This document shows, piece after piece, positions 7,974 to 24,073 of a DNA stretch of 36,129 bases. Source of the stretch: Clostridia bacterium (lineage in GTDB: Bacteria > Bacillota > Clostridia > Oscillospirales > CAG-272). The stretch covers positions 1 to 36,129 of the forward strand of contig JAFVOP010000054.1 of assembly GCA_017505745.1 (NCBI GenBank), given 5' to 3'. How positions within the stretch are numbered: the stretch's first letter is position 1; every line of letters starts with the position of its first letter. The position numbers and the translations under genes were made by a program. The notes below the pieces were generated by a model, which worked only from the letters and a program-made list of their open reading frames with translations, ran no database searches and was not told where the DNA came from.

Positions 7974-8717
7974 TTGTTTGATCTGCAAAAGGCAAGCTTG
8001 TGGAAGCGTCTTTCCGCGGCGTTGTTGGATGGAATTCTTTTGGTAACGGTGGCGGTTGGCGCAGTGCTCCTGCTCTCCCTGCTCCTTGGATACGATGCAA
8101 GGGTGGAGCGGCTGGAGGAGATCTACGCCATCTACGAATCCGACTACGGCGTGGAATTTGACCTGACTCAGGAGGAATACGAGGCGCTTGATGATGCGGC
8201 GCGCGAGAGATATGACGAGGCAAGTCTGGCATTTTCCAAGGACGGTGAGGTCAGTCACCTCTTTGAATTGCTGTTTCATCTGACGATCCTGATGATCGTA
8301 TTCGGAATTCTGCTCGCATTTTTACTTCTGGAATTTTTGGTTCCGCTTCTGCTTCAAAACGGACAAACGGTTGGTAAAAAGGTGTTTGGCGTGGGTGTGA
8401 TGCGCACCGACGGCGTTAAGCTTACCCCCCTGCTTCTCTTTGTTCGCACGGTGCTTGGCAAATACACCGTGGGAACCATGCTCCCCGTGATGCTGGCCGT
8501 TCTGCTTTATTTCGGTGTGATGGGACCGATCGGGCTTTTGCCCGCGGCAGCGCTCCTGTTTGCGCAGGTCCTGCTCCTGTTTGCCACTCCGGCGCACACG
8601 CCGCTTCACGATAAGCTGGCGCATACCGTTACCGTGGACCTTTCCAGCCAGATGATTTTTGAAACTCCCGAAGAGCTTCTTGCCTATCAAACAAAATACA
8701 ACGAAAGTAAGGAATGA
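7974..8717 (+). CDS. RDD family membrane protein
   Basis: A 247-residue membrane protein. The RDD signature is present: LWKRLSAALLDGILL at the N-terminus (Arg and Asp in the first helix), a central VGKKVFGVGVMRTDG segment and a C-terminal HTPLHDKLAHTVTV. Hydrophobic helices lie at about 10-35, 95-122 and 160-205. I chose the TTG at 7974 because AAGGAGAG lies just upstream; the GTG at 7929 falls only 8 nt past the -10 box and has no ribosome binding site. Its stop is 7 nt from the ATPase gene, so it is co-transcribed with the transporter. Role unknown; RDD proteins are often linked to transport. Confidence 0.82.
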   Translation: MFDLQKASLWKRLSAALLDGILLVTVAVGAVLLLSLLLGYDARVERLEEIYAIYESDYGVEFDLTQEEYEALDDAARERYDEASLAFSKDGEVSHLFELLFHLTILMIVFGILLAFLLLEFLVPLLLQNGQTVGKKVFGVGVMRTDGVKLTPLLLFVRTVLGKYTVGTMLPVMLAVLLYFGVMGPIGLLPAAALLFAQVLLLFATPAHTPLHDKLAHTVTVDLSSQMIFETPEELLAYQTKYNESKE

Positions 8718-8724
8718 GACGATT

Positions 8725-9816
8725 ATGAAGGTTGAATTGCGGAATTTGACAAAAATATTTCCCAGCCGAAACAAAAAATCGGGGGAGGAAGTGATTGCCG
8801 TAAACGATTTTACGTTTACCATCCCCGACGGCAAGCTGATCGGCCTGCTTGGCCCCTCCGGATGCGGAAAGAGTACTACACTTTACATGATCAGCGGTCT
8901 GCAAAAGCCGACCTCCGGACAGATCTTTTTCGGAGAGGATGACGTGACGGAGCTGTCTGCGGAGAACCGCGGGATCGGTCTGGTGTTCCAGAACTACGCG
9001 CTCTACCCGCATATGACGGTCAAGCAGAATATTCTGTTTCCGCTTCAAAACCTGAAGGGGGCGGACAAGCTTCCCAAGGCCGAAATGCTGCAGCGCGCCT
9101 ACGAGGCGGCAAAGCTGGTGCAGATCGACGAGTTGATGGATCGCAAACCGGGAGAGCTTTCGGGCGGTCAGCAGCAGCGTGTTGCCATTGCGCGCGCACT
9201 GGTAAAGATGCCCAAGGTACTGCTTCTGGACGAGCCGCTTTCCAACCTCGACGCGCGGTTGCGTCTGCAAACGCGTGAGGAGATCCGCCGCATTCAGAAG
9301 GAAACGGGCATCACCACGATTTTCGTTACCCACGACCAGGAGGAGGCCATGAGCATTTCGGATATGATCGTGGTCATGAAGCTGGGCGTGGTTCAGCAAA
9401 CGGGACGCCCACAGGAGGTTTACGACGATCCCACCAACCTGTTCGTGGCCAAGTTTTTGGGTACGCCTCCCATCAACGTGTTTGCGGGAGAGGTCAAGAG
9501 TGAGAAGCTCTACATCGGCGGTGTAGCCGTGTTGGACGTTCCCGGTGTGGAGGATCGCGAGGTGACGGTTGGAATCCGTCCCGAGGGCTTTGTGCCCGAT
9601 GCAAACGGTCCGCTTGTCTGCAAGCTCAATTCGGTGGAGGTCATGGGGCGTGACGTCAGTGTGGTTTCCACGCATGCGTCCTCCCTCAATCCCATCGTTC
9701 GCTCGATCGTCAACTCGGATTACAGGATCTCGTCCGAGGAAACCGTTCGCTATTCGCTGAAATCCCATAAGGTCTTCCTGTTTGACCGCCGGGACGAGAC
9801 CAGAATTCGCTTTTAA
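8725..9816 (+). CDS. ABC transporter ATP-binding protein, MalK/UgpC/MsmX type
   Basis: A 363-residue cytoplasmic ATPase that powers a CUT1-type importer. Walker A GPSGCGKST is at 43-51, the Q-loop VFQN at 87-90, the signature LSGGQQQR at 145-152, Walker B LLLDEP at 166-171 and the switch His in VTHDQEE near 203. A C-terminal regulatory extension (about 240-363) matches the MalK/UgpC class. The start at 8725 follows a modest AAGGA site. Genes for two permeases and a binding protein follow at once, so this is a dedicated rather than shared ATPase. Confidence 0.95.
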   Translation: MKVELRNLTKIFPSRNKKSGEEVIAVNDFTFTIPDGKLIGLLGPSGCGKSTTLYMISGLQKPTSGQIFFGEDDVTELSAENRGIGLVFQNYALYPHMTVKQNILFPLQNLKGADKLPKAEMLQRAYEAAKLVQIDELMDRKPGELSGGQQQRVAIARALVKMPKVLLLDEPLSNLDARLRLQTREEIRRIQKETGITTIFVTHDQEEAMSISDMIVVMKLGVVQQTGRPQEVYDDPTNLFVAKFLGTPPINVFAGEVKSEKLYIGGVAVLDVPGVEDREVTVGIRPEGFVPDANGPLVCKLNSVEVMGRDVSVVSTHASSLNPIVRSIVNSDYRISSEETVRYSLKSHKVFLFDRRDETRIRF

Positions 9817-9827
9817 GGGGAATCGGT

Positions 9828-10772
9828 ATGGTAGAAAGCAAACATAAATGGAAGGCGTGGCTATACCTGTCGCCTGCGATCGTGCTGCTGCTGATCTTTA
9901 CGGTATGGCCGATCATCAATACGATCCGTATGTCGTTGCTGGTGGACTACAGCACCATCAAGGAAACGGGCGGATACGCGTTTGATTTTGGCATCAAGAA
10001 CTTTGTTCGCGTGCTGAATTACCCCAAATTTCTCAACTGTTTGAAGAATACGTTGCTTCTTTGTGTGCTGACGGTTCCGCTTTCCACGATCCTGGCGCTT
10101 CTGATCGCGGTCTGCCTCAACGCCATCAAGCCCCTGCAACGGTTTTTGCAGACCGTGTTTTTCCTCCCCTATGTAACCAACTCGATCGCTATCGGTATGG
10201 TGTTTTCGGCGATGTTCAATATTATCGGAAACAACATTGGAAGCTCCACGCAGCTGATCACCACGGCGGGTATCATCAACAATATCATCGGGGTATTTGG
10301 CGTGGATCCGATCAACTGGATCAACGCCGGCTCAAGCTATTGGGCAAACATTACCGTTTTGGTGGTTTACATCGTGTGGGATGCGCTCCCGTTCAAGATC
10401 CTGGTGCTTCTGGGCGGACTGCAGAGCATCAACAGGCAGTATTACGATGCGGCAAAGGTGGATAGCACCCCGCGCTCCAGAGTATTTACCAAGATCACGG
10501 TTCCGCTGCTGTCTCCCATGATCGCCTACGTGGTGATCACGGCGTTTATCGGCGGATTTAAGGAATATTCCAGCATCGTTGGTATTTTTGGTGACGGAAT
10601 GGGTCCTGCGGGAGACAAAGGACGCCTGAACACGATGGTTGGATTTATTTACGATTCGCTTGCCGCCTCCCAGGAGGGCCTGGCAAGTGCGGCCGCGCTG
10701 ATTCTTTTTGCGATCATATTTGTTGTTACCATGATCAACCTGTATGTCAGCAAAAAGAAAACACACTACTAA
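9828..10772 (+). CDS. ABC transporter permease, MalF/UgpA type
   Basis: A 314-residue integral membrane subunit with about six helices (first at 11-33, last near 285-308). The EAA loop that docks on the ATPase is visible as YYDAAKVDSTPRSRVFTKITVPLLSP at about 204-229. It is the first of a heteromeric permease pair, 11 nt after the ATPase gene. The CUT1 class normally imports oligosaccharides, glycerol-phosphate compounds and similar; the nuclease neighbours suggest a nucleic-acid-derived substrate, but the sequence does not show this. Confidence 0.93.
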   Translation: MVESKHKWKAWLYLSPAIVLLLIFTVWPIINTIRMSLLVDYSTIKETGGYAFDFGIKNFVRVLNYPKFLNCLKNTLLLCVLTVPLSTILALLIAVCLNAIKPLQRFLQTVFFLPYVTNSIAIGMVFSAMFNIIGNNIGSSTQLITTAGIINNIIGVFGVDPINWINAGSSYWANITVLVVYIVWDALPFKILVLLGGLQSINRQYYDAAKVDSTPRSRVFTKITVPLLSPMIAYVVITAFIGGFKEYSSIVGIFGDGMGPAGDKGRLNTMVGFIYDSLAASQEGLASAAALILFAIIFVVTMINLYVSKKKTHY

Positions 10773-10784
10773 GGGGGTGGAGAA

Positions 10785-11675
10785 ATGACGGAACACGTTT
10801 CGATGCAGGAAAAGAATCTGCAGCAGGTCTCCGCGCACCAGCGCATTGTGAAGGTTGCCGTACAGGTGCTTCTGTACGCCTTCCTCTTTTTGATGGCCCT
10901 CACGGTCCTCTTCCCGTTTTACTGGATGCTGATCTCCTCGGTCAAAACGCTTGCCGAATATCAGCTTCAGATCCCTACCTTCTTCCCGCGCAAGATCGTT
11001 TTCTTCAACTACGTAGAGGCGTTTCAAACCGCCAATCTCGGCAGGCTCTTTCTCAATACGCTCTACGTGGGTGTTGTTTCCACACTGTTGTCTCTGGTGA
11101 TCACGGTGCTTTCGGCCTTCGCTTTTGCAAGACTTGAATTCAAGGGCAAGAACGCTCTGTTTGCCGCGCTCCTGGCAACCATGATGATCCCCGGGGAGCT
11201 CTTTACCATTACCAACTACATCACGGTGGATACCTTTGGATGGATGGAGACCTTTACGGCGCTGATCGTGCCGTTTTTGGTGAGTGTATTCTACATTTAT
11301 CTCCTGCGACAGAACTTTATGCAGATCCCCAACGAGCTGTACCTTGCGGCAAAGGTGGACGGAACGAGCGATTTGAAATACCTGTGGAAGGTGATGATCC
11401 CTCTGGCGCTCCCCACACTCATTTCGATCACGATCCTGAAAATGATGGGCGCGTGGAACTCCTACATCTGGCCGCGTCTGGTTGCCAACAAGCCGGAGAT
11501 GCGACTGATCACCAACGGTTTGCGCAACGCGTTTACCGATGCGAACACCCAGCAAACCAATATCCCCGTGCAGATGGCGGCGGTTGCAATTGTCTCCTTC
11601 CCGCTGTTCCTGGTGTTCATTTTCCTGCGCAAGTATATTATGAAGGGCGTTTCCCGCAGCGGCATCAAGGGATGA
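10785..11675 (+). CDS. ABC transporter permease, MalG/UgpE type
   Basis: A 296-residue second permease subunit. Hydrophobic helices occur at about 27-48, 92-115, 125-145, 158-178 and 262-282. The EAA loop reads ELYLAAKVDGTSDLKYLWKVMIP near 182-204. The ATG at 10785 follows GGGGGTGG-type pairing sequence 12 nt after the upstream stop. It completes the transmembrane channel with the MalF-type subunit. Confidence 0.93.
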   Translation: MTEHVSMQEKNLQQVSAHQRIVKVAVQVLLYAFLFLMALTVLFPFYWMLISSVKTLAEYQLQIPTFFPRKIVFFNYVEAFQTANLGRLFLNTLYVGVVSTLLSLVITVLSAFAFARLEFKGKNALFAALLATMMIPGELFTITNYITVDTFGWMETFTALIVPFLVSVFYIYLLRQNFMQIPNELYLAAKVDGTSDLKYLWKVMIPLALPTLISITILKMMGAWNSYIWPRLVANKPEMRLITNGLRNAFTDANTQQTNIPVQMAAVAIVSFPLFLVFIFLRKYIMKGVSRSGIKG

Positions 11676-11691
11676 CCGCACCCCAAATCCA

Positions 11692-11710
11692 ATATCAATA
11701 CCATTGATAT
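11692..11710. promoter_or_regulatory. Inverted repeat before the solute-binding protein gene
   Basis: ATATCAAT-ACC-ATTGATAT, a perfect 8-bp dyad in the 62-nt gap between the permease stop and the binding-protein start. It could be an operator, or a hairpin that adjusts the level of binding protein relative to permease, as is common for such operons. No clear promoter was seen with it. Confidence 0.4.
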
Positions 11711-11737
11711 AATTACGTTTTACGAAAGGAAGAAACC

Positions 11738-13168
11738 ATGAAAAAGACCATGACCAAGCTTCTCTCTCTGGTGCTTGCGGCGATGCTGATGCTCAGCACG
11801 CTTGCCTTTACCGGCTGCCAAAAGGCCATGCCCGACTTCGAAATGCCCGAAGGCGGCTATGACGGAAGCGAAGTGACCATCACGTTCTACCACACGATGG
11901 GGCAGTCTCTCCAGAGCGTTCTGAATTCCGCGATCGAGTATTTCAACACGCTCTACCCCAACATCCACATCGAGCATACGCAGATTGGCGGCTACGATGA
12001 CGTGCGCAACCAGATCAGCACCGAGCTGACCGCGCAAAGACAGCCCAACATCGCCTACTGCTATCCCGACCACGTGGCGCTTTATAACGTAGCGGATGCG
12101 GTGGTAACGCTCGACCAGTTCATCTCGAGCACGCAGGAGATCACGCTTGCCGACGGCTCCACCACGATCCTCGGCCTGACTCAGGAGCAGGTGGACGATT
12201 TCGTGGACGGCTACTGGAATGAGGGCAAGTCCTTCGGTGACGGTAAGATGTATGCGCTCCCGCTTTCCAAGTCCACCGAGCTGCTGTTCTACAACAAGAC
12301 CTTCTTCACCGAGCATAATCTGTCGGTACCCACTACCTGGGAGGAGATGGAGGCGGTTTGCAGACAGATCAAAGAGATCGATCCTACCTGTATCCCGCTT
12401 GGATATGACTCTGAGGCCAACTGGTTCATCACGCTTTGCCAGCAGTACGGCTCGCCCTACACCAGCCTGGATGATAGCGGACACTTCCTGTTTGATAACC
12501 AAACCAATATCGATTTCGTCAAAGAGCTTCGCACCTGGCACAAGGACGGTCTTGTGACCACGCAGGAGATCTACGGCGCGTACACCTCCGGACTCTTCAC
12601 CGCACAGGGTGAGGGAGAGGTCAAGAGCTATATGTCCATTGGCTCCTCGGGCGGTACCGTGCATCAGCTTCCTACCCAGGACGGCGACGGCAAGTATCCC
12701 TTTGAGGTTGGCATTGCTTCCATCCCGCAGGTGAACCCCGAAAAGCCCGCCGCAATCTCGCAGGGTCCCTCTCTCTGCATTTTCCAGAACGAGAATCCGC
12801 AGGAGGTAATCGCGTCCTGGCTGTTTATGAAGTTCCTTACCACCGATCTTGCCTTCCAGGCAGACTTCTCGATGGCATCGGGCTACGTTCCGGTCATTGA
12901 GTCGGCAAAGAACGATCCCTTCTACGAAAACTTCCTTTCCAAGGCAGACGGCTTTGATAATCTTGCCGCTCTTGGCGCCAGCGTATGTCTGGCCCAGAAA
13001 GACGCTTACTTCACCTCTCCCGCATTCAACGGCTCTACCGTTGCCCGCGAGCAGGTGGGCGCCCTGCTCCAGAAATGCCTGACCGAAAACTGGAGCGATG
13101 CCGAGCTGGATGCAAAGATCAAGGAAACATTCCGTGATGCGATCACGGAATGTGAATACCGTTCTTAA
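11738..13168 (+). CDS. Extracellular solute-binding lipoprotein of the ABC transporter (family 1)
   Basis: A 476-residue surface-anchored binding protein. The signal peptide is Lys-rich at 2-7 with a hydrophobic core, and the lipobox AFTGC places the lipid-bearing Cys at about residue 27. The mature part shows family 1 features: EVTITFYHTMG near the start, WEEMEAVCRQIKEIDP, and NPQEVIASWLFMKFLTT, typical of SBP_bac_1 sugar-type binding proteins. It captures the ligand outside and delivers it to the two permeases. Ligand is not readable. The gene follows the permease by 62 nt and precedes the thermonuclease-like gene by 19 nt. Confidence 0.93.
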   Translation: MKKTMTKLLSLVLAAMLMLSTLAFTGCQKAMPDFEMPEGGYDGSEVTITFYHTMGQSLQSVLNSAIEYFNTLYPNIHIEHTQIGGYDDVRNQISTELTAQRQPNIAYCYPDHVALYNVADAVVTLDQFISSTQEITLADGSTTILGLTQEQVDDFVDGYWNEGKSFGDGKMYALPLSKSTELLFYNKTFFTEHNLSVPTTWEEMEAVCRQIKEIDPTCIPLGYDSEANWFITLCQQYGSPYTSLDDSGHFLFDNQTNIDFVKELRTWHKDGLVTTQEIYGAYTSGLFTAQGEGEVKSYMSIGSSGGTVHQLPTQDGDGKYPFEVGIASIPQVNPEKPAAISQGPSLCIFQNENPQEVIASWLFMKFLTTDLAFQADFSMASGYVPVIESAKNDPFYENFLSKADGFDNLAALGASVCLAQKDAYFTSPAFNGSTVAREQVGALLQKCLTENWSDAELDAKIKETFRDAITECEYRS

Positions 13169-13187
13169 GCGTTGCGGGAGGACGGCC

Positions 13188-14546
13188 ATGAACCGGCATC
13201 TGCAAAAGGGAATCGCTTATCTGCTTCTCCTGTGCACGTTGCTTTGCGGCCTGTCGGCCTGCGGAGAAAGCGAGCCCTCGCACATCGACTACGCCGTTGC
13301 GCACACGTTTGACCCTGCCTCCACCGAAACGGTGAAGGCGGAGGTCACGGTGAAGAGCTTTATCGACGGCGACACCACGCATTTTTACGTTCCTACGTCC
13401 ATTTCGGAAAACGGCGTGCTCAAGGCGAGATACCTTGGCATCAATACCCCCGAATCCACAGGGCAGATCGAGGCGTACGGCAAAAAGGCGGCAAGCTTTA
13501 CCAGAGAAAAGCTGGAGTCGGCAACCTCGATCTACATCGAATCGGATAACGGCAAGTGGAATCTCGATTCCACCGGCGCGCGGCATCTGGTTTGGGTTTG
13601 GTACAAGAGCGCGGACAGTGATACCTACCGCAATCTGAACATCGAGATCATGCAGAACGGACTTGCGATCCAATCCAATTCGGCGGCCAACCGATACGGA
13701 GAATCCTGCGTGGCGGCCTACAATCAGGCAGCCGCCGAGCAGCTGCACGTCCATTCCAAAGAAAAGGATCCCGATTTCTACTACGGCGAGGCGATTGAGC
13801 TGACGCTCAAGGAGCTTCGTTGCAATATCGCGGATTACGCGGGAAAAACCGTGGCGTTTGAGGCTGTTGTTACCAAGAACAGCGGAGCTGACGGCGTGTA
13901 CGTGGAAGCGTACGATGCCGAAACCAATATGTACAACGGCATTTATGTGTACTACGGCGCCAATGCAACGCCTGCCGTTCGCGAGATCCTGAAGATCGGC
14001 ACACGCTTGCGCGTGGCGGGTAAGATCTCTGAGTTCAACGGCTCGTATCAGCTCTCGGACGTCAGTTATTCGCCCTACCGCCCCTCCTCCAAGGATCTGC
14101 AAAAGCTGGACGAGGAGATGCACGAGGCGGCATATACGCTGACCGATCCCGCCCGCTTTGTTTCGGGCGAGGTTGAAGTTTTGTTTGAGGATAGCAAGCA
14201 AACCTATTCTTATGCGGAATTGGCGTTGCATTCATCGGTAACGTTCGAGACCCTCAGAGTGTTGCGTACGTCCACCACCACCAATCCCGCAAGCTCCTCC
14301 AACGGTGCGATCACCGTTTACTGTGAAGCCTCCGACGGTACCAAGATCACGGTTCGGACCGCGGTTCTCTACCGGGAAGACGGGGCGCTTGTCACGGCAG
14401 ACCTCTTTGAGGGGAAGACGCTGGCATCTGTGAAGGGAATCATCGACTATTACGATCCCGATTCGGGAGAGGAAGAGGATGACGGCGATTTCCACTACCA
14501 GATCAAGGTCCTCTCTCTGGGGGACATTTCCATTCAGGGTTCCTAA
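13188..14546 (+). CDS. Surface lipoprotein with thermonuclease (SNase) domain and OB-fold-like C-terminus
   Basis: A 452-residue secreted lipoprotein with lipobox LSAC and the lipid Cys at 25. Residues about 48-210 form a staphylococcal-nuclease-like domain: FIDGDT (58-63), RYLGINTPE (81-89) supplying the catalytic-type Arg81 and Glu89, and TGARHLVW with Arg132. The second calcium-ligand Asp of S. aureus nuclease is Asn86 here. After it, VAFEAVVTKN through GTRLRVAGKISEFNGSYQLSDV resembles an OB-fold of the nucleic-acid-binding type; the last ~100 residues are unassigned. The start at 13188 has GGGAGG 6 nt upstream. It directly follows the transporter genes, so the likely role is cleavage of extracellular DNA or RNA at the cell surface. 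The nuclease fold call is strong; activity is inferred. Confidence 0.88.
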   Translation: MNRHLQKGIAYLLLLCTLLCGLSACGESEPSHIDYAVAHTFDPASTETVKAEVTVKSFIDGDTTHFYVPTSISENGVLKARYLGINTPESTGQIEAYGKKAASFTREKLESATSIYIESDNGKWNLDSTGARHLVWVWYKSADSDTYRNLNIEIMQNGLAIQSNSAANRYGESCVAAYNQAAAEQLHVHSKEKDPDFYYGEAIELTLKELRCNIADYAGKTVAFEAVVTKNSGADGVYVEAYDAETNMYNGIYVYYGANATPAVREILKIGTRLRVAGKISEFNGSYQLSDVSYSPYRPSSKDLQKLDEEMHEAAYTLTDPARFVSGEVEVLFEDSKQTYSYAELALHSSVTFETLRVLRTSTTTNPASSSNGAITVYCEASDGTKITVRTAVLYREDGALVTADLFEGKTLASVKGIIDYYDPDSGEEEDDGDFHYQIKVLSLGDISIQGS

Positions 14547-14572
14547 AAAAAATATAAAAAAGGAGAAAACCA

Positions 14573-17488
14573 ATGAAAAGACTACTTGCACTTGTTCTTG
14601 CCACTCTGATGTGTCTGAGCGTTCTCGCCGGATGCAAGAGCGGCGGAAACACCGGACTGGATGACGCCAAAGAGTATTTGGATACCGTTATGAAGGCCGG
14701 ATCCGAAAACACGCCTGCCGACTACACCGTACTGAATAAGGTTGTGATCGGCAAGGTAGAGTATGCGGTTAGCTGGTCGGTAGACGTAACCGCAGGCGTT
14801 CGCGTTGTGGTTGCCGAGGACGGCACCGTAACCGTTGACGTGGATGAGAGAGCGGCTGCAGACGTGGCATACGTTCTGACCGCTACCATCAAGGATGCCG
14901 ACGGAAAGACCGTAAGCACCTCCTACAACCGCAAGGTTCCCGCATTCAAGGAACTGACCTGGGCAGAGTTCTGCGCTACCGAGGACGACGCGGCTGTTGT
15001 GGTAAGCGGTATCATTACCGGTATCATCGATACCGAAACCTAGCACGAGCTCTATCTGGAGGACACCGACGGCGGTTACTATGTGTATAACCTCGATGCC
15101 GAAAAGATGGACGGCCTGGAGATCGGTATGGAGATCCGCGTGCTGGGTATCCGTGATACCTACTACGGCGTGAACCAGATCATTGATGCATCGGTAGAGA
15201 TCATCAACGAAACGCCCGCTCCCATAGAGCCCAAGGATATTACCGAGGCTGTTTTGGCTGCGGATAGCCTGAAGGATGAGGATCTGCTGAAATTGCAGTC
15301 TACGCTGGTTTCGATCGAGGGTGTTACCGTGATCGGACAGGATTCCACCAACGACACCTACTTCAATTTCTCGATCGACGGCAAGCTCAGCTACGTTCGT
15401 ATCTCGGGCTCTGCAAACATGCTCAGCGAGGAAGATACCGCAACCTTCAAGGCAAACGTAGAAGAGAACGTTGGTAAGGGCGCAACCGCTACCGGTATCG
15501 TTTCGATCTACAACAACCAGATCTATCTCATTCCCGTAACCGTGGATGCGTACGCAGATTTCCGGATCGTTGAGCGCACCCCCGAGGAACAGGTTGCGTT
15601 TGAGGCAGACCTGATGGTAGCTCCCGGCACCGTAACCGAGGCCGGCACCGTGACGCTCTCCACCGCTGTGAAGCTCTACGAGGACGTGACCATTACCTGG
15701 GCGCTGGGTGAGACTACCTACGCAACGCTGGACGGAAACAAGCTCAACATTGCGATCCTTCCCGACGAGGCGCAGACCGTTACCCTCACCGCAACCCTGA
15801 CCAACGGCACGGCAAGCACCACCAAGACCTTTACCGTAAAGATCAACGCGGCTCCCACGCAGGTTGCCGATATGGTGACCGCTCCCGTTGCAGAGACTCT
15901 TTACAAGTTCTACATCAAGCAGTACAACACCAAGCAGACCCTGTATTTTGCAGGCTACGATAAGGGCCTGACCTACACCACCGATCCCACCAAGGCCGTA
16001 GACGTTGGTCTGGAGGCTGTGGAAGGAAAGGACGGCGAGTTCTACTTCTACTACATGGTAGGCACTGCAAAGAACTACATTCTCATCACGCCCGATGAAA
16101 AGGGTGAAAACTACGTGATCTCCGCATCGCGCTATAACAACGGCTCCAATACCTACAAGTACAATTCGGATTTCAACACCCTTACCACCACCATTACCCT
16201 CAAGGATAAAACCACCGGTGAGGATAAGGAAATGACCTACTGGATCGGCACCTACTCCAGCAATGCAAGATTTGGCGTATCCGCGATCTCCTACATCAAC
16301 GCAGGCAACTACCACGTCAGCCAGTTCCCGGCTCACTTCGGCGCTCTCATTGATGTGACCACCAAGACCGACGCGGAGAAGGTAGAGAGAGAAAAGAACG
16401 ATCTGAGCATTCAGACCGCGTTCGACGAGCTGGGCGGAACGGTTTCGCTTCCCGCATACGGCGATCTCTATGCAAAGGTTACGATCACCTGGGCTGCCGA
16501 GGCAAACGCTGCAGTGGTGATTGAAAACGGCAAGCTTAAGGCAGTTCCTCAGGCAGAGGACGCAAGCGTAAAGGTAACCGCTACCATCACCCACGGCGCT
16601 GTAACCGAAACCAAGGAATTTACCGTTACCGTTGCCAAGAAGGTTGTTCCCACCACCATCACCGTGGCAGACGCTCTGGCAAAGGCAGATGACGAAACCG
16701 TTTCGGTAAAGGGTATCGTTACCGAGATCAACACTGCATGGAATGAGCAGTACGGCAATATCACAGTTACCATCTCCGATGCAACCGGCACGCTCTACAT
16801 CTACAGAATGAAGACCAACGTAAAGGTTGGCGACGTGATCATCGTAACCGGTAAGATGGGTACGCACAACGGCAACCGTCAGGTCGCTACGGGCTCCTCT
16901 GCAGAGATCGTTCCGGTTTCCACCGTGGACGAGGTTTTGGCTATGGAGGACAACGCGGAGGTTGTAGTTGCAGGTACCGTTACCGCAATCAACACCGCAT
17001 GGAACGAGCAGTACGGCAACATTTCCGTTACCATCACCGATGCGGCCGGCAAGACTCTGTACATCTACCGTATGAAGGCGAACGTTGCCCTGGGCGACGT
17101 GATCGTGGTTACCGGTAAGATGGGTACGCACAACGGCAACCGTCAGATCGCTACCGGCTCCACCGCAGAGATCTTCGGTAACACCGGCGAAGCCGCTCCC
17201 GAGCCTCAAAAGGTTACGATCGCTGCTGCTATGGAGCTCACCGACGGAGCAGACGTGATCATCACCGGCACCGTTTCCACGATCGACGAGGCGTGGAGTG
17301 AGCAGTACAGCAACATCACCGTTACCATCACCGATGCTACCGGTTCCCTCAAGCTCTACCGCCTGAAGACCAATGTAGCCGTTGGTGACGTGATCACCGT
17401 ATCCGGTAAGATGGCAACCCACAACGGTGCCCGTCAGATCGGCTCCGGTGCAACCGCTACCGTCGATACTCCCGCAGCAAACGGCTGA
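14573..17488 (+). pseudogene. Large OB-fold/Ig-like surface lipoprotein gene interrupted by one in-frame TAG
   Basis: One continuous frame of 971 sense-or-stop codons runs from the ATG at 14573 (AAGGAG upstream) to TGA at 17488, broken only by TAG at 15041-15043 (codon 157). The text on both sides reads as one domain (SGIITGIIDTET / HELYLEDTDGGYYVY), and no start with a ribosome binding site follows the stop. The N-terminus is a lipoprotein signal, lipobox LAGC with Cys21. Then come an Ig-like region, two OB-like domains (about 125-205 and 220-345), an atrophied Ig domain, a middle region (about 430-590) of unknown fold, another Ig domain and three tandem OB-fold repeats at the C-terminus. 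Such OB modules are found in surface nucleases such as YhcR. A CAG-to-TAG change would explain the break. It may be a recent mutation, an assembly error or readthrough. Confidence 0.8.
16666..17485 (+). repeat. Three tandem repeats encoding OB-fold modules
   Basis: Three coding repeats (about 16666-16914, 16915-17193 and 17208-17485) share the pattern VxVxGxVxxIxxAWxEQYxNITVTIxDAxGxLxxYRxKxNVxxGDVIxVxGKMxTHNGxRQ. The first two are nearly identical over stretches of nucleotides, e.g. around the HNGNRQ codons, while the third is more diverged. This suggests recent duplication or gene conversion. They give the lipoprotein a repeated binding surface. Confidence 0.85.
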
Positions 17489-17517
17489 TCGGAACGGCGA
17501 AAAGCCCTTTCAAATTT

Positions 17518-17550
17518 CGGAATCCTCCCTTCCGGGGAGGATTCCTTTTT
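17518..17550 (+). terminator. Rho-independent terminator of the transporter/nuclease operon
   Basis: GGAATCCTCCC and GGGAGGATTCC-type arms with a TTCC loop and a run of T, about 30 nt past the stop at 17488. Confidence 0.9.
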
Positions 17551-17558
17551 TACTTCTC

Positions 17559-17586
17559 TTGACAAACCTTTAAAAAAGAGTATAAT
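17559..17586 (+). promoter_or_regulatory. Promoter of the ribonuclease lipoprotein gene
   Basis: TTGACA (17559-17564), 16 nt, TATAAT (17581-17586), 32 nt before the ATG at 17619. The RNase gene is thus separated from the upstream operon by a terminator and given its own consensus promoter. Confidence 0.85.
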
Positions 17587-17618
17587 AAAGAAAAAGATTC
17601 GAGAGGAGGGGGAACGCG

Positions 17619-18842
17619 ATGAAATTGCGGTTGAGAGTTGGCTCCGTGATTCGCTGCCTGTTGCTCCTGCTTGCTTTGCTCGGGCTGTTTGCCGCGTGCG
17701 CGGCTCCGATCAAGGCGTTGGAGATCCAAGGTGAGGATCGCATCACCCTGATGGTGGGGGAGACGGTGACTCTGACTACCGATCTGCCGCCGCAATATAT
17801 CAAGGATTTGGAATGGAGCGCCTCACACACGTCGGTCTCCGTGGATGCAAACGGAAGGGTGACGGCGGTTTCCGAGGGGAAGGCCATTGTTACGGTCTGC
17901 TACAAGGATCTGAGCGACCGCGTATTGGTGGACGTGGTCTCTCCGTCCGAATATCTGGAGCTTGTAGGGCGTGAAGCCTTTTATCAGACCTATACCGTGG
18001 CCGACAGCTACGGGGAGGCATTGGCAAGATCGGAGCAGGGGCTCATGTCGGGAAGCCTGACGGTTCCCGCGCAGGCCCCCACGCTTGCAACCGTTCAGCC
18101 GCGACTTGACGGCGCGTTGATCCGCAACAGTCAGCCTGCTTATATTGACGAAAATACCTATGCGGTGGTGGATGCCTACGGAAACGAGGTGTTGCGCGTT
18201 TATCGCGGTGGCGGATACATCACGCTTGAGGAGGTGGCGGCTTACGTCTATGCCTTTGGAGAGGTTCCCGCCAATTACGTGGAGGGGAAGAATGCCGAGC
18301 CCGAGGATAGCCCGTGGGGCGAGTATCTGCGCCTGAATCACACCCCGTTCAGCGGTGATACCGACCGTTATCCGTACGAGCCTGTTCTGCCCGATATCAG
18401 CGGCTGCGGCGGGGAGCTGGATTATTATGAGATCGACGTTGGCACTACGGGAACCGATTGTGATCCGCGCTATCAAGCCAAGATCTACAACGACGGTGAA
18501 ACCATTACGCGCGGAGCGGCGCGCATTGTGTACACCCGTTACGATGCCAACGGGGATGCGATCCTCGATCCCAATGAAAAATATCTGTTTTACACCTACA
18601 ATCACTACAACGATTTTCAGGAATATCTGAATTATTACGGCGGATGGGGAGAGCTGTTTGGAAACGTCACGGGTGGCGGAACGTTATCCAGTCGGGAGGA
18701 CTATGCGCCCACCGCGTACGTGTCGACCGTCCGCGCACCCTTGCCCGCGGCTCCCAACGGAGAGGCCGTTACAGCGGCGCTTCTTTTCTATGACCCGCGC
18801 CGTTGGCAGTATGCCGCTTGGCTCGTTGCAGGGGCGGCGTAA
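17619..18842 (+). CDS. Lipoprotein with Ig-like domain and C-terminal barnase-type ribonuclease domain
   Basis: A 407-residue surface protein. The signal peptide ends in a lipobox (LFAAC, Cys27). Residues about 34-108 match a bacterial Ig-like (BIG2) domain: LMVGETVTLTT, then VSVDANGRVTAVSEGKAIVTV. Residues about 195-350 carry the features of the microbial ribonuclease N1/T1/barnase family: YITLEEVAAY, YYEIDV with Glu271, RGAARIVY with Arg298 and Arg302 four apart as in barnase, and YNHYNDF with His329, matching barnase Glu73, Arg83, Arg87 and His102 in order. The predicted role is cleavage of extracellular RNA. No barstar-like inhibitor gene is visible nearby. GGAGGGGG precedes the ATG. Family assignment is from motif reading, not a search. 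Confidence 0.8.
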   Translation: MKLRLRVGSVIRCLLLLLALLGLFAACAAPIKALEIQGEDRITLMVGETVTLTTDLPPQYIKDLEWSASHTSVSVDANGRVTAVSEGKAIVTVCYKDLSDRVLVDVVSPSEYLELVGREAFYQTYTVADSYGEALARSEQGLMSGSLTVPAQAPTLATVQPRLDGALIRNSQPAYIDENTYAVVDAYGNEVLRVYRGGGYITLEEVAAYVYAFGEVPANYVEGKNAEPEDSPWGEYLRLNHTPFSGDTDRYPYEPVLPDISGCGGELDYYEIDVGTTGTDCDPRYQAKIYNDGETITRGAARIVYTRYDANGDAILDPNEKYLFYTYNHYNDFQEYLNYYGGWGELFGNVTGGGTLSSREDYAPTAYVSTVRAPLPAAPNGEAVTAALLFYDPRRWQYAAWLVAGAA

Positions 18843-18890
18843 AAAATGCTTGGGCGACCTGCGAAAAAGCAGGTCGCCCAAGCATTTTTT
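18841..18890. terminator. Strong bidirectional terminator between convergent operons
   Basis: A 22-bp perfect stem, AAAAAATGCTTGGGCGACCT-GC with its complement, around a GAAAAA loop. It overlaps the RNase stop codon and ends 2 nt before the surE stop, so it serves both the plus-strand RNase gene and the minus-strand tdk-surE operon. Confidence 0.95.
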
Positions 18891-18892
18891 AT

Positions 18893-19615
18893 TTACGGAA
18901 TCTCTCGGGACAGGCGTTCGTAGGCCGCCGCATCGATGCGCGCGGCGGTGAGCGGAGTAATTGAGACGCGGCCCGCGCGAACGGCGTCAATGTCAACGCT
19001 CAGATCACGGGCTTCGTATTCCAGAGGGTCTCCCACCTGGATGTAGCGATCGTTTCCGCGGTACTCAAAATCGTCGGTGTAAAAGGGACCGCCCTGTCGG
19101 GTAATCGCAAAGCCGCGCACGGTTGGCGGAAGATTGACGTTGTAGAGCGAATGGCGCTCCAATAAGCGTTTTGCGCAAAAATAGTCAGCAACCGCATCCA
19201 GGGCGTGGATCGACTCTAAAAAGGCGTTGGGATCAGCCGAGAGGGCCACGCCGCGGATCCCAAGCCGAGCGCCCTCCAAAATAGCCCCAACGGTTCCCGA
19301 ATAGGCGATGTCGTCCCCCAGGTTGTAGCCGCGGTTGATACCCGACAACACCAGATCGTAGCGTTGCTTCAACCCTAACACACCGAAACGGACGCAGTCG
19401 GCAGGGGTGGAGTCCACCGCATACGCGCGCACGTCCCCAAATCGGTCGGTGCGCTTGATTTCAATCTCATTGCGAAAATCGATAGCTTGGCTTTTGCCGC
19501 TTTGCTCCACCTTGGGAGCCACCACGGTGACCTCTCCAAAGCGAGAGAGAACCGGAATGAGCAAGGGGAGGATCGGAGATTCGATCCCGTCGTCGTTGGT
19601 GAGAAGGATCTTCAT
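18893..19615 (-). CDS. surE: 5'/3'-nucleotidase SurE
   Basis: A 240-residue metal-dependent phosphatase that removes phosphate from nucleoside 5'- and 3'-monophosphates (and, in some species, short polyphosphate). SurE hallmarks are present: MKILLTNDDGI with Asp8-Asp9, VVAPKVEQSGKSQ, and the SGINRGYNLGDDIAYSGTVGA core. It is the last gene of a minus-strand operon; its ATG overlaps the upstream DHH gene stop by 4 nt (ATGA), so translation is coupled. In this context it would supply nucleosides from the monophosphates released by the DHH enzymes. Identification is firm. Confidence 0.95.
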   Translation of the reverse strand: MKILLTNDDGIESPILPLLIPVLSRFGEVTVVAPKVEQSGKSQAIDFRNEIEIKRTDRFGDVRAYAVDSTPADCVRFGVLGLKQRYDLVLSGINRGYNLGDDIAYSGTVGAILEGARLGIRGVALSADPNAFLESIHALDAVADYFCAKRLLERHSLYNVNLPPTVRGFAITRQGGPFYTDDFEYRGNDRYIQVGDPLEYEARDLSVDIDAVRAGRVSITPLTAARIDAAAYERLSREIP

Positions 19616-20592
19616 AGCCAGCCCTCGTGTTCTGCTTTGTACGCTCTCAGTCTTTCATCGGCCTCGGCGATCAGGGCGCGCATTTCGCGCTTGCTATGGA
19701 CCGTTGCACCGCTGGCACAGTCATGTCCGCCGCCGTGATAGTGCTCGGTGATCGGATTTACGGTTACAAACCGTGAGCGCAAACGAACGCGGATCGAGCC
19801 ATCCTTGGCCTCGATAAAGGCCAGCCAGATCAGGCTCCCCTTGATCGAATCCATGTAGGACACCGAGGCGCAGGCCTCTTCAAAGGTCAGACCGAACTTT
19901 TTTTGCATGGCGCGGCTGACGTAGAGACAGGCCACGCCGTTTGCCGTACGTTTCATTTTTTTGTATACGTAGGCCTGGAACTTCAGCGTGTGGAAGTCCT
20001 TCATATAGAGATTGGCATACAAACGGTCCACGTCCACGCCCAGATCCAACAGCAACCCCGCGTAGCGCATGGTGTCGCCCGAGACCGAACGGAAGCGGAA
20101 GCGTCCCGAATCGGTGACCATACCCGCGTAGAGGCAGGTGGCCGCCTCGCGGTTGATCTTAAGTCGGTCGCGGAAGGTGTAATAGAACTCCACGATCATT
20201 TCGCACGCCGAGGACTTGTGCTCCTCTACCCATCTGCAGGTGCCGTACGGTTCGGTCTCAATGTGATGGTCGATCTTTACGATCTCCCGACAGAGCGCGT
20301 ACCGCGGGTTGGAGATGCGTGCGGTGGTGGCGGTGTCGATCACGATGCCGAGAGCATTGGCGTAGATTTCGTCGGACAAAGGCTCATCCTCTTCGCCGAG
20401 AAAGGCAACAAAGTCCGAAAAATCGGCGTTGTTGACGTAGATCTTCTTTTCGGGATAGCTCAGGCGCAGGATCTCGCAAAGACCCTTTGTGGCTCCCACG
20501 GCGTCTCCGTCGGGGCGCAGATGGCGAAACAGGATCACAGTTTCGTAGGCTTGGATCTTTTCGAGGATCGCGGTCATATGTTCCAGATTCAT
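19612..20592 (-). CDS. DHH/DHHA1 phosphoesterase, NrnA-like (copy 1)
   Basis: A 326-residue cytoplasmic phosphoesterase. RHLRPDGDAVG (23-33) gives the first metal motif, VIDTATT (84-90) the second, the DHH triad is at 108-110 within KIDHHIE, and the C-terminal substrate motif reads HYHGGGHDCASGATV. NrnA enzymes degrade 2-5 nt RNAs from one end and may hydrolyse pAp; some members act on c-di-AMP products. It overlaps both neighbours by 4 nt (ATGA). It is paralogous to the next gene (20589-21536), but the two differ clearly in sequence, so they are not a recent duplication. Confidence 0.9.
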   Translation of the reverse strand: MNLEHMTAILEKIQAYETVILFRHLRPDGDAVGATKGLCEILRLSYPEKKIYVNNADFSDFVAFLGEEDEPLSDEIYANALGIVIDTATTARISNPRYALCREIVKIDHHIETEPYGTCRWVEEHKSSACEMIVEFYYTFRDRLKINREAATCLYAGMVTDSGRFRFRSVSGDTMRYAGLLLDLGVDVDRLYANLYMKDFHTLKFQAYVYKKMKRTANGVACLYVSRAMQKKFGLTFEEACASVSYMDSIKGSLIWLAFIEAKDGSIRVRLRSRFVTVNPITEHYHGGGHDCASGATVHSKREMRALIAEADERLRAYKAEHEGWL

Positions 20593-21536
20593 AGCAGTGT
20601 TTCCTTTGAAAGAGCGTTGAGGTCTTCGAGGAGCGCCATTGCCTCCTCGCGGTTTTTCAGGGTTGCGCCGCTGGCTTTGGCGTGTCCGCCGCCGCCGTAT
20701 TTCACGGCAATGGGGTTGATGTTGTGGCGATTGGAACGGATTTCACAGAGCACCGTGCCCTCGCTTTCGGTAAAATTGACCCAGGTGTCGATGCCTCGGA
20801 TCTCTCCCATCACGTTCACCATTCCGCGGGAGACCGTAAAGGTATCGGCACAGTATTGCTTGGCCTCCTCCTCGGTGGTATAGATGTAGGCCACGCGGTG
20901 CGGCGTGGTTTGGATCTTGAGCGCAAAGCGCGCGCGCAATTGGATGAAAAACAGATCGTCGGAATAGAGGTTGCGGTAGATATCGGAGGTGTCAAAGCGG
21001 CGCTCCATCAAAAAGGAGGCCATGCGGAAGGTCTGGGAGGTGGTGGAATCGTAGCGGAAGCGCCCCGAATCGGTGACCATGCCCGTGTACAGCATCTTTG
21101 CCGCCTTGGCTGAGACGGTGAGTCCGCACTCCATGGCAAAGGCTGTGAGCAGCCCGCAGCAGCTTTCAAAGGAGGTGTCGGTTATCTCCACGTCTGCGAT
21201 CTTCTCGCAGAAGATGTGGTGGTCGATGCGCGCCGTTTCGTCGGCAAGCGTGTAGCGCTCGTCGCTGATGAGCGCCTTTGCCGAGGTATCCAGAATGATG
21301 GCAAGCGCGCCCTGATACTGTTCGTCCGCAACCGTGTCGATCGATTGCTCCCCAAGAATAAAGGAAAAGCGGGGGGTCATGTCACCAACGGTCAGGATCT
21401 CCTTTTCGGGAAAGGTGTCGCGCAGGATCTGTGCCAGACCAAATTGGCTTCCCAGCGCGTCTCCGTCGGGGTTTTTGTGTCTGTGAAGAATGATGCGGGG
21501 GTATTTTCGGATCTGCTCGTAGATTGGTTCGAACAT
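20589..21536 (-). CDS. DHH/DHHA1 phosphoesterase, NrnA-like (copy 2)
   Basis: A 315-residue paralogue of the previous enzyme. HKNPDGDALGS (20-30), ILDTSAK, RIDHHIF (DHH at 105-107) and KYGGGGHAKASGATL near the C-terminus are all intact. I set the start at 21536 because AAAGGA lies 7-8 nt upstream; an ATG at 21554 would overlap that site and the end of the HD gene. It starts 4 nt after the HD gene stop, and its stop overlaps the start of copy 1. Two adjacent NrnA-like genes suggest specialised substrates, such as RNA versus DNA nano-oligomers or pAp versus pApA, which the sequence alone cannot separate. Confidence 0.9.
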   Translation of the reverse strand: MFEPIYEQIRKYPRIILHRHKNPDGDALGSQFGLAQILRDTFPEKEILTVGDMTPRFSFILGEQSIDTVADEQYQGALAIILDTSAKALISDERYTLADETARIDHHIFCEKIADVEITDTSFESCCGLLTAFAMECGLTVSAKAAKMLYTGMVTDSGRFRYDSTTSQTFRMASFLMERRFDTSDIYRNLYSDDLFFIQLRARFALKIQTTPHRVAYIYTTEEEAKQYCADTFTVSRGMVNVMGEIRGIDTWVNFTESEGTVLCEIRSNRHNINPIAVKYGGGGHAKASGATLKNREEAMALLEDLNALSKETLL

Positions 21537-21540
21537 ACTC

Positions 21541-22773
21541 TCATCCTTTCTCAATGGACCGCGACGAAGAGTCGCCGTCGAAATAGCCCTTGTATTCCAC
21601 GCGCAACGGACTGCCCGGGAACAGGTGGGCGTGCAGGTCGATGAAATAATTATCGGTCATGCTGGCGATATAGTCCACCACAATATCGTTTGGATCGGCT
21701 TGCTCGTACGGGACTGCTCGCTTGTAGTGAATGGCGTTTACGTAATCGATGTGGTGGGTGTAGATTGGGGAGGACGTTCTGTTTTGTTGCAGGTCCTCCA
21801 AAAGCTGCCCGTAGATCTCCTCCATCATCGGCTTTACGGTCGTGTCCAGTCCCGCAAAGGCGGCGGCACGGTGGTAGATGCGCGTATAGTTGTCGATCCG
21901 CGATTTGCGGAGAGCGCGAAAATGCTTGGTGTCCAATTTGATATAGGGCTTTCCGTAGCTGTTTTCGATGACGTTGACCACCAGATTATTAATGATCTCG
22001 GCGTTGATCGAGCCGATGTCCTCGTTGAAAAACATGCTTTCCTCGGCAATCTTGGTACGGGCGGCATCCTGGCGATCCTTACCAAGGTAGGCGATCACGT
22101 CGGAGAGCCGTACCACACTTCCTTCCAGCGTGCTGGGCATCAGCTGCATCATGTAGTCGCGGTCCACGTAACATTTTTGAATCATGCGGTCAAATTCTTC
22201 AAAAGAAGTCAAAGGAACGGGGTGGTACTCCTCGCAATCCAGCTCGCCGTTGTGTGTGGCGATGCCGTTGAGGGTTTGCAGGCTGATGTTATAGGGAAAG
22301 ATCCCGTCCAGCACGCGCACCGAGTGGATGTTATGGAAGAAATGACGGCCCGTATGACGGAAATAGAGCTCGTCCAGGTAAGCCTCTCCCGTGTGTGCAA
22401 ACGGGGGATGGCCGATGTCATGTCCCAGCGCGATCGCCTCGATCAGATCAAGATTGAGGTGCAGAGCACTGCCGATGGTGCGCGAGATGCGTGAGACCAG
22501 CTGCACGTGCAAACTGCGGCGTGTGAGATCGTCGTTTTTATAGAGGGAAAAGACCTGGGTCTTGTCGGTGTAGCGGTTATAATAGGGGCAATGCAGGATC
22601 TTGTCGATATCGTGCACAAAGGTAGGGCGCCAAACCGTTGCCGCATCCTTGGCAAGGTTCTGGCGGCGGACTACCCGGGTATCGTCAAACGCCACTTTTG
22701 GAAAAACGCCGCTTTCCTTGGCGCGTTGGATCTCTTGCTCCAGCTCTTTGGAAAGAGCCTCAAATTTTGGCAT
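21541..22773 (-). CDS. HD-domain deoxyguanosinetriphosphate triphosphohydrolase-like protein
   Basis: A 410-residue cytosolic enzyme. RSLHVQLVSRISRTIG (His89) and GHDIGHPPFAHTGE (His118-Asp119) form the HD metal site in the layout of dGTPase/dNTPase proteins, and SDVIAYLGKD supplies the later Asp. Members split dNTPs to deoxynucleosides and triphosphate. Substrate preference is not readable, and some dGTPase-like proteins are SAMHD1-like or regulatory. The start at 22773 follows GGAGG with 7 nt spacing. It lies between deoC and the DHH pair in the same operon, which fits deoxynucleotide turnover. Confidence 0.88.
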   Translation of the reverse strand: MPKFEALSKELEQEIQRAKESGVFPKVAFDDTRVVRRQNLAKDAATVWRPTFVHDIDKILHCPYYNRYTDKTQVFSLYKNDDLTRRSLHVQLVSRISRTIGSALHLNLDLIEAIALGHDIGHPPFAHTGEAYLDELYFRHTGRHFFHNIHSVRVLDGIFPYNISLQTLNGIATHNGELDCEEYHPVPLTSFEEFDRMIQKCYVDRDYMMQLMPSTLEGSVVRLSDVIAYLGKDRQDAARTKIAEESMFFNEDIGSINAEIINNLVVNVIENSYGKPYIKLDTKHFRALRKSRIDNYTRIYHRAAAFAGLDTTVKPMMEEIYGQLLEDLQQNRTSSPIYTHHIDYVNAIHYKRAVPYEQADPNDIVVDYIASMTDNYFIDLHAHLFPGSPLRVEYKGYFDGDSSSRSIEKG

Positions 22774-22803
22774 ACTGTTCCTCCGTACGTGCTTGGGGGA
22801 TGA

Positions 22804-23472
22804 TCAATATCCGGTGATGCCGGTTTCGCTCTTCGCGATCTTTACGATGCGGCTGGTTCCCAGGCGATCGGCCCCAAGATTGATAAAATCCTCGGCGTCG
22901 GCAAGCGACGAAATTCCGCCGGCCGCCTTGATGCGAACTCCCTTGCCGATATGTGCGGCAAACAGAGCCACGTCCTCGCGCGTTGCTCCTGCCGTGGAAA
23001 AGCCGGTGGAGGTTTTGATATAGTCGGCGCCCGAGGCGGTGACCAGCTCGCACATCTTGATCTTTTCCTCGTCGGTGAGCAGACAGGTTTCAATGATCAC
23101 CTTGAGGATCCTGTTGCCGCACGCCTGCTTCAAGGCGGTCAGCTCAGCCAGGATCTCGTCGTATCGGCCGGATTTCAGGTGGCCGATGTTGATTACCGTG
23201 TCGATCTCGTCGGCTCCGTTGCGGAGCGCGTCCTCGCACTCAAACACCTTAACGGCGGTGGTGGAATATCCGTTGGGAAAGCCGATGACCGTACAGATCT
23301 GCAGCCGATCGCCCACATAGTCCTTGGCCTGCTTTACGTAGCAGGCGGGAATGCAGACCGAGGCGGTAGAAAAACGGATACCGTCATCGCAGATCGCGCG
23401 GATCTCGTCCCAGGTGGCGGTCTGCGCAAGCAGGGTGTGATCGCATTTGGAAAGAATATCGGATAGCTTCAT
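22804..23472 (-). CDS. deoC: Deoxyribose-phosphate aldolase
   Basis: A 222-residue class I aldolase that splits 2-deoxyribose-5-phosphate into glyceraldehyde-3-phosphate and acetaldehyde, the last step of deoxynucleoside breakdown. The catalytic set is complete: [11 protein letters not shown] with Asp91, the Schiff-base lysine Lys153 in YIKTSTGF, and Lys182 in RIKAAGGI. It begins 4 nt after the tdk stop and is followed by the HD gene after 30 nt. A pyrimidine phosphorylase or phosphopentomutase, the usual partners, is not in the window. Confidence 0.97.
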
Positions 23473-23476
23473 CGGT

Positions 23477-24073
23477 TCAAATCTCCTTTTCGTTCAGTTT
23501 TTGCAGTTGGATCTGTGTTCTCCAACATTTGTGGCACATGGCAACGTAGCAATCGTTTCCGCCCAGCATCACCTGGTCGCCCTCGGTAACAACGCGTCCC
23601 TGTTCGTCGATGCGTGCGTTGACGGTGGCCTTTGCTCCGCAGGAGCAGATCGTTTTGATCTCGGTGATCGAATCGGCCAATTCAAACAGGCGGCGGCTAC
23701 CGGGGAAGAGATGAGAGAGAAAATCGGTGCGGAGGCCAAAGCAGAGCACGGGGATATTGCGCTCATCCACGATCCGGCGTAGGGCATCCACGTGCGCGGC
23801 GGTAAAAAATTGACACTCGTCGGCAATGATGACGTCGGCATCGGTGTGCAAGGCGAGAAAGCGGGCGTAAAGATCGTCCGAGCTTTCTACCGTATCGCAG
23901 GGAGCCGAGAGCCCGATGCGGGATTGCACCGTTCTTTTTCCGTCGCGGGTATCCAGGGCGGGCTTGATCAGCCAAACGCGCATCCCACGCTCCTCATAGT
24001 TGAATTTGGTGATCAACGCTTGCGCGGTTTTGGAGGAGCCCATCGCGCCGTATTTAAAATAAAGCTTTGCCAT
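23477..24073 (-). CDS. tdk: Thymidine kinase (class II, zinc-binding)
   Basis: A 198-residue enzyme phosphorylating thymidine (and deoxyuridine) with ATP. The P-loop GAMGSSKT is at 9-16, DECQF at 85-89 includes the catalytic-base Glu86, and four structural zinc cysteines are in place (C143, C145, C180, C183). The start at 24073 follows GAGGTGG; the in-frame extension to 24190 crosses the upstream terminator and is rejected. It is the first gene of the six-gene operon tdk-deoC-HD-DHH-DHH-surE. A TACAAT box lies near 24107-24112 with no strong -35. Confidence 0.96.

Follow-up and report, generated by a model that had tools for sequence, protein, structure and literature searches.

What does a sugar-type importer carry when its neighbours encode nucleases? 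The question is raised by a contig of 36,129 nucleotides (C47, here called the window) from a Clostridia bacterium (Oscillospirales, CAG-272) whose genome, 87% complete, amounts to 2.34 Mb in 121 contigs. Its plus strand carries in succession the genes for an RDD-family membrane protein, a CUT1-type ABC ATPase, two permeases with BPD_transp_1 domains, a solute-binding protein (SBP) that is an SBP_bac_8 lipoprotein, an SNase-type nuclease lipoprotein and an OB-fold/aBig_2 lipoprotein. Convergent to this importer unit, the minus strand encodes Tdk, DeoC, an HD-domain protein, two NrnA-like DHH enzymes (DHH1 and DHH2) and SurE. Open reading frame (ORF) and family profile scans bore out, at the coordinates given below, the gene content that an initial annotation had proposed for both strands. 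CUT1 importers are by default annotated as sugar transporters and, to our knowledge, the uptake of nucleic-acid building blocks by wall-less bacteria and gut anaerobes is poorly known. The comparisons reported here make it likely that the locus is a nucleic-acid scavenging module combining surface nucleases, CUT1 import of phosphorylated fragments and intracellular finishing by the DHH enzymes and SurE. The direct basis for this is gene content, conservation of gene order, co-occurrence and conserved catalytic residues, and at that level the functional link between nucleases and importer is strongly supported.

Conservation of the importer neighbourhood

Among 196 genomes of the family, the window's own included, 101 gave an SBP match, and 50 of these are orthologues (at least 42% identity, one of the 50 partial). 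An SNase gene lies downstream of the SBP gene in 47 of the 48 orthologue loci whose contig runs on for more than 900 bp, a count that also takes ORFs overlapping the SBP gene; the sole miss (L059) is an SBP gene without importer genes on a contig of 8.7 kb. The SNase gene was found at this place in 4/4 loci of another family of the order and in 9/9 named loci, the latter from another collection whose species may overlap with the family set. Where more than 4 kb are available upstream, the other three importer genes are present in 41 of 42 family loci, and the RDD gene likewise in 41 of 42. Almost every family orthologue whose contig is long enough keeps the order RDD-ATPase-permease-permease-SBP-SNase-OB lipoprotein.

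A sister importer clade, represented by 11 loci selected from the family SBP matches (L061-L071; 29-36% SBP identity) and by L116 from another family of the class, has an SNase gene downstream in 0/12 cases. In these loci the SBP gene is followed by that of a protein of about 230-276 amino acids, which in the 11 family loci mostly has a lipoprotein signal and in some is weakly similar to the OB lipoprotein; the two such proteins that were scanned had no Pfam match. The initial annotation had pointed to co-occurrence of close SBP homologues with nuclease lipoproteins as the check on its proposal, and such co-occurrence is what emerged (47/48 versus 0/12 in the sister clade). The opposite outcome, glycosidases consistently standing in place of nucleases, was not seen among the matches listed for the 46 nearest genes flanking the module; these belong to mixed families, with no glycosidase family matched more than once among the 25 of 67 families with the most members and a single GH92 match. 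The 25 neighbours scanned in the sister clade are also mixed, with one alpha-amylase and one GHL6 match among the first 25 of 47 families.

The genes for DHH2, DHH1 and SurE lie downstream, always on the opposite strand, in 20 of the 31 family loci with more than 9 kb of room. Given room, all three genes are also found downstream in 3/3 loci of the other family of the order, DHH1 and DHH2 in 5/5 named loci (SurE in 3/5), and the DHH/SurE unit in 0/8 of the sister set.

Co-occurrence across the family genomes

Importer and DHH1 are joined well beyond their physical linkage. With DHH1 orthologues defined by at least 54% identity, a cut placed at an identity gap (G011 being counted on two contig-edge fragments), DHH1 is present in 48/50 importer genomes versus 7/146 without importer, and 139 genomes have neither (Fisher test, 1.4e-35); the two genes share a contig in only 22 of the 48 genomes with both. 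SurE behaves similarly, with 45/50 importer genomes versus 8/146 without (importer only 5, neither 138). The p-values are inflated by shared ancestry, which is, however, unlikely to be the whole cause of the co-occurrence, because the link between importer and DHH1 persists within 16 mixed genera (stratified z 5.2, for the rows carrying genus labels among the matches listed) and because the sister importer, found in 69 genomes, has no association with DHH1 (p 0.62). The inclusion of an intracellular half, DHH enzymes and SurE, in the proposed system is supported by co-occurrence that is independent of linkage and by the presence of the same families beside the importer in Bacilli.

Related loci in Bacilli

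Related importers were reached in one order of Bacilli (that of genome G815) by way of L103, a metagenome-assembled genome (MAG) of Acholeplasmatales. The samples comprised 40 listed places plus L103 for this order and 40 listed places for the class, chosen across the score range; since some genomes contributed more than one locus, the locus counts are not independent. The SBP-profile scans at phylum and order level scored the 4-6 best candidates of each genome (10-11 in two scans), so that the matches are lower bounds. A same-strand SNase gene lies within 2.6 kb of the importer in 23/41 loci of the order and 25/39 of the class sample. Genes for Endonuclease I, SNase or lamin-tail domain (LTD) proteins, for DHH enzymes and sometimes for SurE often accompany the related importers on the same strand. 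Pfam scans of representative loci identified Endonuclease I, LTD-SNase and metallo-beta-lactamase proteins. The last occur at L117 12666-14198, L126 4508-7516 and L141 2586-4007, one of them fused to Endonuclease I, and are possibly further surface nucleases.

Bacilli DHH enzymes, where present, are co-directional with the importer (17/22, 7/9 and 17/29 loci with room). L194 and L196 have the order ATPase-permease-permease-SBP-SNase-...-DHH1-DHH2-SurE on one strand; in L194, DHH and SurE score over their Pfam cut-offs and the protein matching the SNase hidden Markov model has no Pfam match. L173 reads ATPase-permease-permease-SBP-SNase-LTD protein-SNase-DHH1-DHH2. Five loci (L175, L177, L179, L181 and L187) combine importer, DHH and SurE without a nuclease profile match, DHH and SurE being confirmed by Pfam in L175. 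Within the order of G815, two NrnA-like matches were found in 29 of the 30 importer genomes listed versus 2 of 12 controls, which were drawn from the 46 genomes without an SBP match; the exception (G883) has a single match, which lies where its contig ends, and the two in G913, equal in score, are perhaps a single gene that was assembled in duplicate. In five small genomes, on contigs of 0.65-0.88 Mb (L152-L156), the importer forms one block with 1-2 DHH genes and a putative MnmE gene, and the profiles of this analysis gave no surface nuclease match there. Part of this synteny is housekeeping, since the block includes the MnmE-like gene.

Phylogeny of the DHH enzymes and binding proteins

FastTree was used to build trees of the DHH enzymes and of the SBPs, and it gave long-branch warnings for both. 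The DHH tree holds 103 rows, of which 18 are clostridial locus rows including the two of the window; importer-less genomes carrying DHH1 were left out. The DHH1 and DHH2 proteins of the clostridial loci cluster with Bacilli enzymes, apart from 12 resident clostridial NrnA-like proteins, and the branch that parts the latter has full support, although it is long and flagged. The DHH1 branch (support 88) contains importer-locus rows only, among the rows sampled. Likewise, the SBP tree places the clostridial clade among Bacilli rows. The simplest reading, though not a proven one, is that the module would have been exchanged between Bacilli and Clostridia and the nuclease lost in the sister line.

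Proteins of the locus

The importer genes make up the set expected of the CUT1 type, a MalK/UgpC-like ATPase, two BPD_transp_1 permeases and an SBP_bac_1/8 protein in one operon. The RDD-family protein (7974..8717, plus strand; PF06271, 52 bits) may start at TTG 7974 or at GTG 7929. It is followed on the same strand by the ATPase (8725..9816; PF00005), whose best NCBIfam model, of the UgpC type, reaches 343 of the 432 bits set as its cut-off, and by permease 1 of the UgpA/MalF type (9828..10772; PF00528) and permease 2 of the UgpE/MalG type (10785..11675; PF00528), matched below cut-off by NF007852 and NF008210, respectively. The SBP (11738..13168; PF13416, 115 bits) reaches 55.2 bits against the UgpB NCBIfam cut-off of 411. 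The UgpB model is matched at E <=0.001 by 41 and the P68 lipoprotein model by 29 of 43 SBPs, the window SBP lying below the cut-off of the latter. A search of 398 genomes with the P68 model returned no match, the controls being likewise silent. One stop codon falls within the SBP match in 5 of the 50 orthologues (4 TGA, 1 TAA), and the orthologue of L046 is broken into two ORFs.

The SNase-type lipoprotein (13188..14546, plus strand) matches PF00565 with 34.8 bits (cut-off 21) and the models NF047694 and NF033681 below their cut-offs; its C-terminal stretch resembles the N-terminus of ExeM/NucH. Residues D62, R81, E89 and R132, which we take to be the metal-binding Asp and the catalytic Arg, Glu and Arg, are kept in 86/86 aligned sequences, a few of which come from genomes fetched twice, and the protein also aligned with staphylococcal nuclease of the PDB. 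At 15041-15043 an in-frame TAG interrupts the gene of the OB-fold/aBig_2 lipoprotein (14573..17488, plus strand; PF01336, 35.9 bits; PF20578), leaving parts of 156 and 801 codons. The barnase-type RNase lipoprotein (17619..18842, plus strand) contains a Big_2 domain (PF02368) and a sub-threshold PF00545 match of 17.5 bits (cut-off 24). The same weak match recurs in 11/12 homologues (best E 0.0011), and E271, R298, R302 and H329, which we take to be the catalytic Glu, two Arg and His in barnase-like order, are invariant in 12/12. A barnase-type assignment below threshold but sound is thereby retained, even though no barnase was among the sequence matches of the protein in the PDB. A homologue (32% identical) lies within a Bacilli importer locus (L131 1560-2813). 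The surface location of the nuclease and binding lipoproteins is predicted from their lipoprotein signals, and the enzyme activities of the locus proteins from family membership.

All the intracellular enzymes are encoded on the minus strand. SurE (18893..19615; PF01975, 163 bits) would be a nucleotidase. DHH2 (19612..20592) and DHH1 (20589..21554, with an ATG at 21536) are NrnA-like phosphoesterases, both with DHH (PF01368) and DHHA1 (PF02272) domains over cut-off. The HD-domain protein (21541..22773; PF01966) had been called dGTPase-like; the resemblance is real, but its scores lie under all dGTPase cut-offs among the matches listed (TIGR01353, 110 bits, cut-off 152). DeoC, deoxyribose-phosphate aldolase (22804..23472; PF01791), and Tdk, thymidine kinase (23477..24073; PF00265, 136 bits), belong to the same operon in the window, yet their linkage in relatives is only patchy.

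Organization of the transcription units

From the Tdk start at 24073 to the SurE stop at 18893, the minus-strand genes overlap by 4 nt or are separated by 4-30 nt. The importer unit is preceded by a promoter-like site (7891..7920, plus strand; 10/12, consensus match only) and closed by an intrinsic terminator (17519..17545, plus strand; -22.1 kcal/mol, z -4.6). The latter is followed by a perfect sigma-70-type promoter-like site (17559..17586, plus strand; 12/12, consensus match only) before the barnase-like gene, which, set apart in this way, looks like a separate transcription unit. The initial annotation had described two convergent units with one common terminator. The hairpin between them is real (18843..18888; -43.8 kcal/mol, where shuffled sequences average -11.5; z -11.4), whereas the plus-strand genes do not form a single unit. 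Elsewhere in the window, a gene for an M56/BlaR1-type sensor and a small adjoining ORF lie upstream of the importer unit (4287-7090, minus strand), and an MGH1/GH63-like glycoside hydrolase is encoded in a stretch of lower G+C content about 10 kb past the Tdk end (33811-35334).

Proposed function and alternatives

We propose that the lipid-anchored nucleases, the SNase-type one acting on DNA and RNA and the barnase-type one on RNA, would cut nucleic acids at the cell surface, where the OB-fold lipoprotein would act as a nucleic-acid binder. The SBP would capture the released short phosphorylated fragments or nucleotides for the CUT1-type importer to carry inward. In the cytoplasm, DHH1 and DHH2 would cleave short oligomers to mononucleotides, SurE would strip the phosphate from these, and the (deoxy)nucleosides would be used by Tdk, by DeoC and possibly by the HD protein. 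The imported substrate is probably short oligonucleotides or nucleotides. UgpB substrates are phosphorylated, and the entry of phosphorylated fragments rather than nucleosides is suggested by the presence of two phosphodiesterases and a nucleotidase in the cytoplasm and by the UgpB-like kinship of the SBP.

Several observations weigh against this proposal. The SBP resembles binders of sugars and of glycerol-3-phosphate (UgpB), and the nuclease-free sister clade is nested inside nuclease-linked rows of the SBP tree, so that association with a nuclease is not a constant feature of the entire SBP branch. The OB lipoprotein of the window genome is interrupted; since the position of the TAG is open in 14/14 aligned relatives, this copy is either truncated or the product of an assembly error. 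No DHH/SurE unit lies downstream in 11 of the 31 family loci with 9 kb of room, DHH1 occurs without the importer in 7/196 genomes, three of them more than 90% complete (G028, G058 and G064), and the importer occurs without DHH1 in 2/196. In Bacilli, no SNase gene was found within 2.6 kb downstream in 18/41 loci of the order of G815 and 14/39 of the class sample, and part of the synteny in that order, which includes housekeeping genes, may be plain inheritance. DHH/DHHA1 enzymes, as the available text of PMC7373297 indicates, act on cyclic dinucleotides too.

This last point bears on a different arrangement, in which the importer takes nucleosides or bases dephosphorylated outside while the DHH enzymes and SurE handle cyclic dinucleotides, 3'-phosphoadenosine 5'-phosphate (pAp) or the turnover of the cell's own RNA, regulation being the reason for their linkage. 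Although the ABC transporters of the Izemoplasmatales loci were concluded to be 'probable nucleoside or nucleobase transporters' (in the available part of PMC8289736) and a mycoplasma DHH enzyme breaks down cyclic di-AMP and nanoRNA (in that of PMC7373297), we regard it as unlikely. Pfam scans of both strands matched no surface nucleotidase family in the window locus, the co-occurrence of SurE and DHH1 with the importer extends to unlinked cases, and five Bacilli loci retain importer, DHH and SurE without an adjoining surface nuclease match. The co-occurrence profile of DHH1 and SurE also speaks against an ordinary importer of oligosaccharides or glycerophosphodiesters whose nuclease neighbours serve other ends, such as the removal of biofilm or extracellular DNA. 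For such an importer one can adduce the best family models, which are of UgpABCE or carbohydrate types, and the sister clade that lacks SNase in the same family of genomes; however, several nuclease families adjoin the importer in two classes, and no glycosidase family recurs by the 46 flanking genes among the matches listed, which leaves this explanation quite improbable. That the convergent units are independent neighbours, with synteny but no common function, seems very improbable indeed. They lie on opposite strands, and in 26 of 48 genomes importer and DHH1 are on different contigs, but the unlinked cases still co-occur, every DHH gene found in Bacilli loci with room runs in the direction of the importer, and the association holds within the 16 mixed genera.

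The preferred reading remains a scavenging module for phosphorylated fragments. In a bolder form, which we advance only tentatively, the transporter may be a dedicated importer of oligonucleotides (or of 3'-phosphonucleotides). A branch of CUT1 would thus have moved to nucleic-acid fragments, travelling between Bacilli and gut Clostridia with its own DHH1, DHH2 and SurE, swapping its surface nucleases freely and retaining only the DHH enzymes as partners in some very small genomes.

Relation to known systems

The initial annotation had held that a nucleic-acid-linked CUT1 importer would be new. It is preceded, as far as the accessible parts of the reports go, by systems described in PMC3585158, PMC8289736, PMC8397711 and PMC10470597. 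In mycoplasmas, an SNase gene stands with those of a sugar-type ABC transporter and a binding protein, and in Mycoplasma agalactiae (MAG_5030-MAG_5070) these genes are co-transcribed, an operon for which a role in nucleotide precursor uptake was proposed in 2013 (PMC3585158). It shares with the window an SBP-like lipoprotein, an SNase lipoprotein, a 'sugar'-type ATPase and two permeases, a likeness drawn from descriptions; its order is SBP-SNase-ATPase-permease-permease, and the available text mentions no RDD protein, OB lipoprotein, DHH pair or SurE.

DNA-degradation loci with nucleases, phosphohydrolases and ABC transporters were reported for Izemoplasmatales in 2021, where, in the part of the text available, nucleases or nucleosidases adjoin related binding proteins (PMC8289736), and the DNA-degradation cluster of X. 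coldseepsis zrk13 was found in the same year to be up-regulated with DNA (PMC8397711). As far as these descriptions go, the window and these loci have in common extracellular nucleases, a lamin-tail or nucleic-acid-binding protein, 3'-5' nucleases, phosphohydrolases and ABC transporters. The defining genes of the Izemoplasmatales type are present in the window (surface nucleases, a nucleic-acid-binding surface protein, a 3'-5' nuclease-type enzyme and an ABC importer), and the same gene families are carried by L173. This locus is, however, co-directional whereas the window is convergent, and the window, from a clostridial MAG, adds RDD, the barnase-type RNase, SurE, DeoC and Tdk. Hujiaoplasma nucleasis zrk29 has a nucleic acid-degradation locus, many genes of which are induced by DNA and RNA (2023; PMC10470597); like the window, it contains an extracellular RNase, NrnA and ABC transporters, as far as the available description goes.

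Importers of glycerol-3-phosphate and glycerophosphodiesters (UgpABCE) are among the best models for the window ATPase, permeases and SBP; all window scores are nevertheless under the curated cut-offs, and the window neighbours are nucleases. No report of a comparable gut clostridial locus was recognised among the entries listed from an open-access library. The present locus is thus a known idea extended, the new elements being the convergent layout, RDD, the barnase-type RNase, SurE, the salvage genes and the clostridial family. Also new is quantitative evidence tying importer, DHH1 and SurE together.

Biological significance

The lineage of the host is found in animal guts, and related sets occur in wall-less bacteria; the closest SBPs among the named loci come from Clostridia MAGs, the nearest (83% identity) from sheep colon. 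With a defined SBP, defined nucleases and defined inside enzymes, the substrate of one importer becomes directly testable. If the proposed function is correct, annotations would be corrected in at least 27 labelled genera of the family, and the observations made in mycoplasma and Izemoplasmatales would be joined to a broader module.

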